From positions 1 to 29,570 of the IMG/VR virus record IMGVR_UViG_3300020442_000445: a DNA stretch of 29,570 bases; one strand, 5' to 3'. Shown piece by piece: positions 8,026-23,419 of this stretch; the first letter of the stretch is position 1; the number at the start of each line of letters is the position of its first letter. The notes beneath the pieces were generated by a model. That model made no database searches. It saw only the letters and a list, made by a program, of their open reading frames with translations, and was not told the origin of the DNA. This DNA is from a virus. Both the position numbers and the translations under genes were made by a program.

Positions 8026-8031
8026 TTTATG
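8024..8031 (-). promoter_or_regulatory. Late-type promoter CATAAATA
   Basis: Seven of eight matches to TATAAATA on the minus strand, overlapping the stop codon of the protease gene and about 22 nt before the ATG of the 145-aa gene. It would drive the four coupled genes 6040-8001. Confidence 0.55.
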
Positions 8032-10117
8032 CTACGATGATTTCACCATGCATACCATTGTGGTTTGAACATTGGTAGAAGTATGTGCCAGCAGTATTAG
8101 GTGTCCAAGATACAGTACCATTATAAGAACCTTGTCCACTAGCAGCAGGAGTATTTACTTGATTACCAGTACCAGTTCCTTGCACAGTCTTGATATAGAA
8201 TGGATGACTGGAGGATACATTAACAGTAAAGTTAATTGTATCACCTACAAGTAAATTAATAGTAGGTTGTTGGTTGTTACTATGTGATGCCTGACGATCT
8301 TGTCCAGTGAATGTATATTGTCCACCAGAATAACCAATAGTATAATTAAATGTCTTGCTAGTTAAATCCTGTGGTAACGCTCTATGGTATGAGTTTGTCC
8401 TAGGAAATAGTTGTACTTGTCCTCGTTCAATGACTTCTTTATTACGTCTCTTACCATGGAGACATTCTTTATACCATCCACCCATGTAACCTTGTACTGG
8501 TCTTGGGGGTTCAAGTCTGAGCTCAGGACAATCACCATCATAAAAGAGACCACCATTAGAACCTTTACATGTTGCATCAGAAAAATCACCACCAAAAACA
8601 TCAAAGGACATGTCATCTTTTTTTCCAAACTGCTGGATGTAAGCATACATATCACTCTGAGTAAATCTTGTTTTACCAGTTGCTATACATGCAGCTACAC
8701 CACAAACTTGTGGTGATGCCATGCTAGTTCCATTGATGTTATCGTAATAATTTGATCCACCGTATTTGGTATCATATGTACCAGTATTATTGTAAGTGGA
8801 AACAATAGAGTAACCTGGTGCCCATACATCAATCGCAGGTCCAAAGTTTGAGAAAGATGCTCTACGGAAATCATCATCATTATCAATAGCACCAACACAA
8901 ATTGCATTCTTTGCATTGCCAGGACTAGATCCTCTTTGATAATAAGAAATACCATTATACAATCCTTGGAATTTGATTGCATTATTCCAATCAACATACG
9001 ATGGGTCAGTTGGATCTGGTTTTGGCATATAGAAATCATTATTGCCAGCAGCAATGATGACTACAACTCCATCTTCAATAGCATCCTCAACATCTGCTGT
9101 GATAGCAGAGTAATTATAATTAAACATCCTCTTCCATTGAGAGATGCCAAAGTCATTTTCCAATCCAGACATTGACCAACCACTAGGATTTGGATTATTA
9201 GAATCGTAAGTTGTTCCTCTGTATGTTACATATTCAATACTACTAATTCCAATACCGTTATCAAATGTACCTATTAGATTAGTACTCCAACCATAACTAT
9301 GGTTCGTAACCGTAGGATTCTTAAAACCAGTTTGTAAATTAATTGGTTTGTGTGCATGAAATGCTCTAAGGTAATCAAAAATCAATAGTGCTGGAACTGC
9401 ACCAGAACCTAAAACTCTAAGACTATAAATGTTTGCTTCTGGAGCCCACCCATACCACTTACCAGCAACAGTTCCTGCCACGTGAGTGCCATGATAACTT
9501 GTATTGTTTGCGTTAGAAATATACTGAGTATATGGAGCACTAGGAATACTCTGACCATCATCATCTATACTACTAACATACTGGTTTAGTTCACCATACC
9601 AGTCATACATCTGAAACCTGTCTCTGTTATCAGATATTGCTTTCCAGTCTTCACAATCAAATGATACTGGATCATCACAGATGACTACATCAACATGTCT
9701 ACCATCACTAAAAATATCAACGTTATCAGTCACACTACCACTAGGCCAATTATATTTTCTTCGTTGACCATCGCTACCTGCTACATGTAACTTCCCCCAA
9801 TCTCTATCAGTTGCTTGGTAAGTACCAGACTTACGAAATTCTGTTCCATGTCCATGAGGTGCATAATTATATAAACCAACATCAACTCCATATGGAGTTA
9901 GTTCAAGATGAGGGATATCATCTGGAGTTAATTCAACTGCAAGAACTCTACCATCTTTTCTTAATTGTTCTGCCTGTTCATCAGACATGTAGTAATGTGT
10001 GTTCCTACTGATAGGACGTTTTGCAGATAGTTTAAAACCATCTGCTTCCATCTCAGTATAGAATTCTTCTAAGTCTTCTTTACGTTTTAGCGTGACAATA
10101 TAAACTTTATCTGCCAT
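8027..10117 (-). CDS. Subtilisin-like serine protease with C-terminal cupredoxin-like domain
   Basis: 696 aa. An N-terminal part (1-75) resembles an inhibitor-like prodomain. The S8 catalytic domain spans about 125-500: Asp148 (VDVVICDDP), His209 (YHGTHVAGTVAG), oxyanion Asn359 (IIAAGNN) and Ser465 (INGTSMASPQVCG). All triad residues are present, so an active enzyme is likely. Residues about 590-696 form a beta domain with cupredoxin-type ligands His638, Cys683, His686 and Met689 (YFYQCSNHNGMHG). No signal peptide is present. It stands next to two tail-fibre-like genes, so it is probably a virion protein that cleaves tail or host-surface proteins. AGAGG precedes the ATG at 10117, and the gene starts 2 nt after its neighbour's stop. 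Confidence 0.92.
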   Translation of the reverse strand: MADKVYIVTLKRKEDLEEFYTEMEADGFKLSAKRPISRNTHYYMSDEQAEQLRKDGRVLAVELTPDDIPHLELTPYGVDVGLYNYAPHGHGTEFRKSGTYQATDRDWGKLHVAGSDGQRRKYNWPSGSVTDNVDIFSDGRHVDVVICDDPVSFDCEDWKAISDNRDRFQMYDWYGELNQYVSSIDDDGQSIPSAPYTQYISNANNTSYHGTHVAGTVAGKWYGWAPEANIYSLRVLGSGAVPALLIFDYLRAFHAHKPINLQTGFKNPTVTNHSYGWSTNLIGTFDNGIGISSIEYVTYRGTTYDSNNPNPSGWSMSGLENDFGISQWKRMFNYNYSAITADVEDAIEDGVVVIIAAGNNDFYMPKPDPTDPSYVDWNNAIKFQGLYNGISYYQRGSSPGNAKNAICVGAIDNDDDFRRASFSNFGPAIDVWAPGYSIVSTYNNTGTYDTKYGGSNYYDNINGTSMASPQVCGVAACIATGKTRFTQSDMYAYIQQFGKKDDMSFDVFGGDFSDATCKGSNGGLFYDGDCPELRLEPPRPVQGYMGGWYKECLHGKRRNKEVIERGQVQLFPRTNSYHRALPQDLTSKTFNYTIGYSGGQYTFTGQDRQASHSNNQQPTINLLVGDTINFTVNVSSSHPFYIKTVQGTGTGNQVNTPAASGQGSYNGTVSWTPNTAGTYFYQCSNHNGMHGEIIVA

Positions 10118-10119
10118 TA

Positions 10120-11202
10120 TTAAACCTCTAGTTTAACAAACCATAGTGTTACTGTAACATCTTGTGTATTACCAGATTTATTAACTACCTTCACGTATGC
10201 ATCAGTGGTTGGTGATGGTAAATCATTATACCCTAAAGTGCCAGGAGTAATTCTTTGCTTAGATCCATCACTAGTAATAACTTCTGCGATAACACCTGAT
10301 CCTGGTAGTGGATCTGTGTTCTCACTTCTATTTGCATCATTAGTTCTACTAGTAGGGTCAGTATATAAAGTTACCCAAGCAGCAACAGATGTTTGAATTG
10401 CATGTAAAGCATATGTTTTAGCCGCTGTAATATCAAGGTCTGCTACCCCTCCATTCGCTAATTGATTTGCTGTTGCTCCTGCTGTTGTTCTAGCTTCAAG
10501 TCCACTAGAACTACTACCACTCTCATTAAGAACATGAATTGTTCCAGTCATAGCAGGGTGTGCTGTACACTGATAATACAAAGTCTGTGGTGCATCCATT
10601 GGCACCAAGAATGTTAATGTACTACCACCAGCAGCATCTTGATTCGTTACACCATCATTATATGCTGTTCCTCCACCTGCTTGAGCAGTAGTAGATTGAA
10701 TTCTAAATGGATGACCACCAGTATCATTCTTAAACTTATAGGTCTGTCCCCTCATCAAATAGATTGTAGGATCATTAGTAGGTGTTGGGAATCCATCGCC
10801 TGCAAAAATATAATCTGAACTACCATTTGCTGTTAGAGTCCACTCAATCTCTGGAGCAGCAGTTAATACACCAGTGTCATCATCTGCTGGATTCCAAGAA
10901 CTACCATTGTATTTTAAAACTTGACCAACACCTGCACTAGTAGTGTTTACATCTGTTAGACCACCAAGTGTGGTAACACCAGCAGAGGAAGACAGTTCTC
11001 CTTGTGCATTGATGGTTAGATTATTACCTACCTTGATACCACCTAATTGACTGGAAGAAGCAATAGGTAAAGTATAACCTAAGTTCAATCCTTGTGCCTT
11101 CCACGTGGTTCCATCCCACGTCCATGTAATACCTGCTGCGGTATGTGCAAACGAACCGTCTGTTGGTTGGTTGATTGTTGAAGGAAAATTAATATTGGCC
11201 AT
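10120..11202 (-). CDS. Tail-fibre-like structural protein with cupredoxin-like domain
   Basis: 360 aa. The N-terminus (INFPSTINQPTDGSFAHTAAGITWTWDGTTWKA) and the segments SSSQLGGIKVGNNLTINAQGELSSS and VTTLGGLTDVNTTSAGVGQVLKYNG are typical of phage fibre or adhesin proteins. Residues about 145-226 form a domain similar to the end of the neighbouring protease: YLMRGQTYKFKND...GHPFRI and LYYQCTAHPAMTGTIHV, with ligand candidates His164, Cys212, His215 and Met218. The C-terminus (240-360) looks like a beta-rich tail domain. It lies 7 nt downstream of the 605-aa fibre protein and 2 nt before the protease, so all three are one late transcript. Exact virion location is unknown. Confidence 0.85.
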   Translation of the reverse strand: MANINFPSTINQPTDGSFAHTAAGITWTWDGTTWKAQGLNLGYTLPIASSSQLGGIKVGNNLTINAQGELSSSAGVTTLGGLTDVNTTSAGVGQVLKYNGSSWNPADDDTGVLTAAPEIEWTLTANGSSDYIFAGDGFPTPTNDPTIYLMRGQTYKFKNDTGGHPFRIQSTTAQAGGGTAYNDGVTNQDAAGGSTLTFLVPMDAPQTLYYQCTAHPAMTGTIHVLNESGSSSSGLEARTTAGATANQLANGGVADLDITAAKTYALHAIQTSVAAWVTLYTDPTSRTNDANRSENTDPLPGSGVIAEVITSDGSKQRITPGTLGYNDLPSPTTDAYVKVVNKSGNTQDVTVTLWFVKLEV

Positions 11203-22215: not shown

Positions 22216-22393
22216 CTGCACCCAATCTCATTGCTTTCTTTACCTTTGCAACGAGTTTGTCGTCAATATCATTATCATTGGATTGTGCATAATCCTCAAG
22301 CATTTCAATAGCAAATACTTTCATTTGCTTTTTGAACACTCTCCTCACTAACATGAACAGAATGGGTTTGAATAGAACAAATAGAAATGTCAT
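22211..22393 (-). CDS. Small membrane-anchored basic protein, 60 aa
   Basis: 60 aa. The N-terminus MTFLFVLFKPILFMLVRRVFKKQMK is hydrophobic then basic, like an uncleaved membrane anchor, and is followed by an acidic helix (MLEDYAQSNDNDIDDKLVAKVKK). The ATG at 22393 overlaps the lipase stop as TAATG. Its stop codon is part of the next late promoter. Coupled expression with the lipase hints at a shared membrane-directed role, which is inference. Confidence 0.65.
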   Translation of the reverse strand: MTFLFVLFKPILFMLVRRVFKKQMKVFAIEMLEDYAQSNDNDIDDKLVAKVKKAMRLGAV

Positions 22394-23007
22394 TACATGA
22401 CCACTCGTTTTGATTCAAAAAATTTCTCTGCTGCTGTTACATAGTCACCCATATTGTGATCTGCAACACCATCAAATCTAGTATCATTCTCATCTTTCAA
22501 CTGAATTGCAGGGTGAGTATGAACATAACCTGCTAACCATGGAGGAGTTCCTGGTACAATATCATCTCCATGAACAAACCTCATATGCTCAAGGTTTTTT
22601 AATCTTTTTCTAAGTCTACGACCACCTGGTCTAGGAGATCCAGCAGTTACTAGTACAATATTTCTATTACCAGATTCCCAAAGTAAATCAGCAATCAATG
22701 TAGCAGTAGCACCACCAAGTGAATGACCTGCTAACACCAATGTTCTACTAGGATCCAAAGCTTCGTAACCAATTACTAGTTGTGCTAGTGTCCTATTAGC
22801 ATTGTTCTTAAATCCTCTGTGACAATCATCTCTCTTAATCATAAACTTCAGATTTGTCACCCAATCTGTAGTTTCATTCGTACCTTCTACAGCAAGAATA
22901 GTAAATCCATCAATTGCTCTACTAACTAGAAAGTCTTGATCATGTGGATAAACATCTCTACAACATCTAAGTGCTTCAAGTACCACATTTTTTGATAATT
23001 TAAACAT
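22393..23007 (-). CDS. Class 3 lipase-like alpha/beta hydrolase
   Basis: 204 aa. The ATG at 23007 (MFKLSKNVVLEAL) has GGAG 6 nt upstream and is preferred over starts up to 20 codons earlier. The nucleophile elbow is GHSLGGAT with Ser96. Asp149 in HGDDIVPGTPP and His184 in VADHNMGDY complete a class 3 lipase triad; the DDIVP-x-PP pattern and a His about 35 residues later are typical of that family. FTILAVEGTNETTDW gives the oxyanion region. There is no signal peptide, so it acts inside the cell or in the virion. Substrate is unknown; host membrane lipids during lysis or assembly are one option. Coupled to a small membrane protein. Confidence 0.9.
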   Translation of the reverse strand: MFKLSKNVVLEALRCCRDVYPHDQDFLVSRAIDGFTILAVEGTNETTDWVTNLKFMIKRDDCHRGFKNNANRTLAQLVIGYEALDPSRTLVLAGHSLGGATATLIADLLWESGNRNIVLVTAGSPRPGGRRLRKRLKNLEHMRFVHGDDIVPGTPPWLAGYVHTHPAIQLKDENDTRFDGVADHNMGDYVTAAEKFFESKRVVM

Positions 23008-23029
23008 ATTAAACTCCATAATTATAACG

Positions 23030-23419
23030 CTACTTATTTTTATGTTTCCATGCCGTAGCATATGCAATGGATTTTTCGTCTTTGGTTAGTTTACCGTCTT
23101 TAGCGTATGATTTTTTAATGTGTTTAACCATACGCTCATACTTTTTTCCAGGAGGTGCATCCTCCTTAACACCCAATGCCTTGTCTGGTCCCTCAGGAAC
23201 TTTAGGCATCACCTCAATCTTTGCGTCCTTTACTTTGACAGTTTTCTTTGACTTAATCTTGCTGTATGCTTTCTTATCGGCACCTTCAACATTTAATGTT
23301 TTAGGATAGTCTTTACTACCTTTTTTAGCAGGGGGTTCACCACGCTTTCTCTTAGCATGAATGTTATCCCACAGTCCTCTTTTCTTACCTTCCGATATAA
23401 ATTCTTGGAACGTTTTCAT
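23030..23419 (-). CDS. Hypothetical basic protein of phage structural type
   Basis: 129 aa, very Lys rich. The N-terminal motif EGKKRGLWDNIHAKRKRGEPPAKKGSKDYPKTL and the C-terminal HIKKSYAKDGKLTKDEKSIAYATAWKHKNK are patterns I recall from several proteins of cyanophages and other marine phages. The high charge suggests binding to DNA or to an acidic partner, such as in the prohead core, but this is unproven. A perfect late promoter lies about 24 nt before the ATG at 23419. No strong ribosome-binding site is visible. Confidence 0.75.
   Translation of the reverse strand: MKTFQEFISEGKKRGLWDNIHAKRKRGEPPAKKGSKDYPKTLNVEGADKKAYSKIKSKKTVKVKDAKIEVMPKVPEGPDKALGVKEDAPPGKKYERMVKHIKKSYAKDGKLTKDEKSIAYATAWKHKNK

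Follow-up and report, generated by a model that had tools for sequence, protein, structure and literature searches.

The window, meaning the whole stretch of 29,570 nucleotides analysed here, is a fragment of a T4-like cyanophage. It contains psbA- and psbD-type genes along with genes for a transaldolase, a ribonucleotide reductase and a primase, and a megablast search with the contig matched 466 phage records, cyanophages nearly throughout. Two neighbouring genes on the minus strand carry the module described below: one encodes a subtilase, and the other, directly upstream of it, a gp9-like tail protein. The subtilase reading frame and the positions of its four candidate metal ligands are as the preliminary description gave them. 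Elsewhere in the window, the product of 22393-23067 (-) matches the phage esterase/lipase family phrog_21992. The features are listed here, with ligand counts referring to module copies less than 80% identical in which all four positions are readable (160 copies).

8027..10117, minus strand: subtilase (Peptidase_S8, Pfam PF00082) with a C-terminal cupredoxin domain, 696 aa
8030..8356, minus strand: cupredoxin domain, residues 588-696 (start approximate), A1 profile E 8.6e-44
8051..8053, minus strand: Met689, predicted axial ligand, codon ATG; 158/160 copies
8060..8062, minus strand: His686, predicted ligand, codon CAC; 153/160 copies
8069..8071, minus strand: Cys683, predicted thiolate ligand, codon TGT; 154/160 copies
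8204..8206, minus strand: His638, first predicted metal ligand (His-Pro), codon CAT; His in 154/160 copies
8369..8602, minus strand: stretch of low-confidence prediction joining protease and cupredoxin domain, residues 506-583, in the full-length AlphaFold2 model
10120..11202, minus strand: neighbouring tail protein, residues 42-226 matching phrog_677 'baseplate wedge tail fiber protein connector'
10528..10851, minus strand: second cupredoxin module with the same four ligands in its translation (GGHPF ... YYQCTAHPAM), A1 profile E 2.0e-41, this module being itself among the 12 rows of profile A1

The protease part belongs to the peptidase S8 family: residues 180-495 match PF00082 at 106.8 bits (cut-off 21.8), and the Asp-His-Ser triad is present together with the oxyanion Asn. 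These catalytic roles were assigned by motif to D148, H209, N359 and S465, which are invariant across 26 full-length relatives of the protease, and because of this invariance the subtilase is probably active. In the AlphaFold2 model of the full-length protein (mean pLDDT 75.8), the stretch that joins the protease to the cupredoxin domain has pLDDT values below 50 at residues 506-528 and 540-583. Low pLDDT alone is no proof of disorder, and the stretch probably behaves as a flexible tether, a reading that disfavors tight allosteric coupling between the two parts. Orthologues of the protease in S-WAM2 and S-RSM4 stop short of the cupredoxin module, so that the protease of some phages, to judge from these two, can do without it. 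In the ACG-2014h orthologue, an additional stretch separates the protease from the module. This stretch in the ACG-2014h / S-MbCM7 protein (locus L011, 2986-5910) comprises about 280 residues and appears by eye to be alpha/beta hydrolase-like, with a GYSNGG motif.

The C-terminal part of the subtilase had been described as a beta-type domain with the ligand set of blue-copper proteins, a description borne out by profile comparison, by the predicted fold and by the conserved His-Cys-His-Met set. Its C-terminal location also holds, while its start lies about 27 residues further upstream than first placed, near residue 588 (window position ~8356 rather than 8275). The Pfam Copper-bind model (PF00127; gathering cut-off 21.2) matches residues 618-695 of the whole protein at 16.9 bits, and the isolated domain narrowly misses the cut-off at 21.0 bits. 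The domain also scores under the thresholds of the equivalog models for amicyanin (TIGR02657, 23.8 vs 110.2 bits) and plastocyanin (TIGR02656, 17.9 vs 87.85 bits). Its best phmmer matches in the PDB are plastocyanin 1b3i and amicyanins. A profile of 52 relatives matched 62 PDB sequences at E values up to 0.1, and the best 60 of these 62 are without exception copper proteins, of cupredoxin or multicopper-oxidase type, namely plastocyanin, amicyanin, nitrite reductase, azurin, rusticyanin, auracyanin, pseudoazurin, cupredoxin, laccase-type oxidases and cytochrome oxidase subunit 2. One profile match, 1kbv, is AniA under its former name, 'Major outer membrane protein PAN 1'.

Structure prediction, which had been proposed as a check, gave a cupredoxin fold. 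AlphaFold2, run on the domain with the alignment of 52 relatives, returned a model with a mean pLDDT of 97.9 and a pTM of 0.90, and the top solved structures found for this model with Foldseek and VIA-align are cupredoxin-fold proteins, which places the domain in the Greek-key beta-sandwich superfamily of cupredoxins. The best structural matches are the N-terminal cupredoxin domain of a three-domain Cu nitrite reductase (2dv6; VIA-align Z 11.6, with 93 residues superposed at rmsd 1.9) and rusticyanin (2cal; Z 10.6), from which the phage domain differs in being only 24-27% identical and in having another protein context and other partners. In the model, where residue 1 corresponds to protein residue 586, Cys98 closes the strand 92-98, His101 and Met104 reside in the loop ahead of the strand 105-110, and His53 lies just ahead of the strand 55-58. 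As modeled, this arrangement of strands and ligands is the cupredoxin layout and is plastocyanin-like.

The domain shares its fold (by profile and model) and its His/Cys/His/Met ligands with amicyanin and plastocyanin, and the Cys683-x2-His686-x2-Met689 loop has the same spacing and length as in amicyanin. Profile alignment to the plastocyanins 1b3i and 1bxu puts all four residues on known ligands; in the profile alignment to 2plt the first His is shifted, and in the pairwise phmmer alignment to amicyanin from the PDB it is off by two residues. Unlike both proteins, the phage domain forms part of a larger protein with no evident secretion signal, and the residue following its first His is Pro, where plastocyanin has Asn; it also stays under the Pfam, amicyanin and plastocyanin cut-offs given above. 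The type-1 site of multicopper oxidases also shows His-Pro, and this dipeptide is therefore no sign against copper.

Conservation of the four ligands was assessed in several collections of homologues. All four are invariant in the 26 full-length protease relatives, and in 12 diverse module copies they account for four of the eight invariant columns. A set unbiased with respect to the ligands was obtained by seeking proteases with patterns confined to the protease part and taking the best 80 of 182 by full-length score, a selection mildly biased towards domain-bearing copies; His-Cys-His-Met is present in 59 of its 60 complete, less than 80%-identical copies, and in the remaining one Asn replaces the second His. 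Ligand-free patterns were also run against bacterial and archaeal genomes and yielded 24 non-redundant copies, every one of them with the complete set. Phage and bacterial sources together gave 171 non-redundant copies, some of them found in viral sequences with a pattern that included the Cys; the four positions are readable in 160 and intact in 153, while most positions outside the ligands vary across these 160. Since the ligands are invariant in the 26 relatives and intact in 153 of 160 copies, the four-residue match goes far beyond chance. A coincidental set of such residues in a beta-sandwich of another kind was considered and is ruled out by profile, fold and conservation. The sequences and the model agree that the protease ends in a true cupredoxin domain whose type-1-copper-like site is intact.

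The seven exceptions among the 160 copies are informative in their own right. In six of them both His and the Cys are gone together, and two of these six are also without the Met. The pairwise association of losses among His, Cys and His gives Fisher p values of about 1e-10 with relatedness ignored, values that overstate the association because the six site-less copies are partly related; judged by position in the protein, the six losses perhaps represent three independent events. The site-less copies retain Gly39 and Ile107 in six of six cases and Tyr95 in five of six. Because loss is joint and core fold residues are kept, we read these sequences as supporting a single metal shared by the four residues and a fold that is independent of the metal site. 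Five of the six site-less copies are found in proteins with another, intact copy. Five multi-module proteins were noted in which one copy is without all or nearly all of its ligands and another is intact.

The cupredoxin module is not confined to the protease. The second module lies within the gp9-like tail protein 10120-11202 (-), and modules of its type occur in 332 of 50,697 phage records, in 327 of them with at least 80% coverage. Nearly all of the module-bearing records are Synechococcus or Prochlorococcus phages. Cultured carriers of the module include S-H9-1 and Syn19. Among 21 phage genomes, which were chosen for relatedness and so provide no estimate of frequency, 19 have one to four copies. 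Some proteins contain two or three modules in tandem, tail-fibre families also contain the module, and it is found in many unrelated protein contexts. In GenBank, one module-bearing protein of S-SCSM1 is marked as a virion protein; the virion proteome of this phage was determined by mass spectrometry (PMC9602691).

Bacterial proteins hold the same module, with the same ligands and 42-51% identity in most of the matches that do not look like phage. Several of these carriers, unlike the phage ones, are lipoprotein-like and secreted rather than tail proteins, from Flavobacteriaceae, and some carriers join the module to Lipoprotein_15 repeats or to a CHRD domain. Two secreted lipoprotein-like proteins of Flavobacteriaceae have Lipoprotein_15 repeats and a C-terminal cupredoxin module. 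Three matches in genome contigs look like stray or integrated phage; among them is PAHY01000031.1, probably a stray contig of cyanophage origin filed under a Planctomycetota MAG, with a 98% match to the tail module of the window. A metal site of this kind on a phage protease had been called unusual, a view not supported in the light of the abundance of the module in cyanophage tail proteins, its second copy in the next gene and its presence in secreted bacterial proteins.

The variation from one to four copies, the tandem proteins, the S-WAM2 and S-RSM4 orthologues that end before the module and the insertion in the ACG-2014h orthologue form, at the level of sequence, the pattern expected of an optional, mobile cassette on cyanophage tail and baseplate proteins. 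Optional Ig-like domains are likewise mobile beta-sandwich modules on phage tail proteins, present or absent between relatives. To our knowledge, the Ig-like domains of phage virion proteins have no conserved metal site, whereas the cupredoxin module has a conserved predicted one. Cyanophages also encode the plastocyanin petE, a cupredoxin (PMC3037559). The petE product is a free-standing metabolic electron carrier, in contrast to the module considered here, which is part of tail proteins and has a shorter ligand loop.

The best overall explanation, which we hold with good confidence, is that a mobile, type-1-copper-like cupredoxin module occurs on cyanophage tail proteins and that the C-terminus of the protease is one copy of it. 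Given the complete site, and given that all of the listed solved sequence relatives are copper proteins, the domain would likely bind copper, and other metals could also occupy the site. The neighboring tail genes and the tail families that carry the module suggest that it probably sits on the virion tail, joined in this case to the protease by a stretch that is probably flexible. What it does there is a more tentative matter. Conceivably, the metal-loaded domain could serve for contact with the host envelope, with the protease cutting proteins at the surface. We regard contact with the envelope as the most likely role, and do so tentatively, ahead of stabilization, copper capture and electron transfer.

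It could be that the metal merely stabilizes an exposed beta-sandwich domain, serving as a spacer or in adhesion, and takes part in no specific copper chemistry. Copper does stabilize cupredoxins, and the many unrelated contexts of the module are those of a structural cassette. This reading, which the preliminary description had allowed for, is weakened by the site-less copies, which keep core fold residues, and the apo forms of plastocyanin-type proteins fold without copper; it seems rather unlikely. Capture or chaperoning of Cu(I) or Cu(II) from the host envelope or from seawater, which would shield the virion or starve the host, would draw on the tight binding of copper by a His2-Cys-Met set and on several copies per virion, which is plausible should the gp9-like protein belong to the baseplate. 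One metal per domain makes for a small capacity, however, and no copper gene besides the cupredoxin modules was seen among the scanned genes of the window, so that we consider such a function unlikely.

Electron transfer or a redox switch, by which the redox state of the host would gate tail firing or protease action, is doubtful: the fold and ligand set match those of type-1 electron carriers, but Pfam finds no domain for an electron partner elsewhere in the protein, two protease orthologues are without the domain and the poorly predicted linker disfavors tight coupling. Occupation of the site by zinc or another metal instead of copper is improbable, for while type-1 sites accept zinc and other metals in vitro, two His, a Cys and an axial Met are typical of copper, and the solved sequence relatives among the matches listed are copper proteins only. 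A vestigial site, that is, an adhesion domain with inherited and now functionless ligands, would fit the few copies that have lost the site and is highly improbable in view of four ligands kept in 153 of 160 copies, variation at most other positions and losses that occur as a unit.

Among the titles and abstracts listed in searches of open-access papers, none describes this module, and it may have been noticed earlier elsewhere, for example in InterPro labels. The fold itself is already known; the context and the His-Pro, short-loop signature set this domain apart within it. A copper site of this kind would extend the optional modules already known from phage tails by a metal-binding class. 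Few viruses of the sea outnumber cyanophages, and the recurrence of the module in the tail proteins of related viruses suggests a so far unreported role for copper in common ocean viruses. In its broadest and speculative form, for which we see only a slight chance, most T4-like cyanophages would have copper-loaded type-1 sites on their baseplate and tail-fibre proteins and would use their occupancy or redox state when adsorbing or firing the tail, and infection of ocean picocyanobacteria would thereby depend on copper. Were tail proteins to hold a conserved copper site, infection would be tied to a trace metal in short supply and yet toxic to the host.
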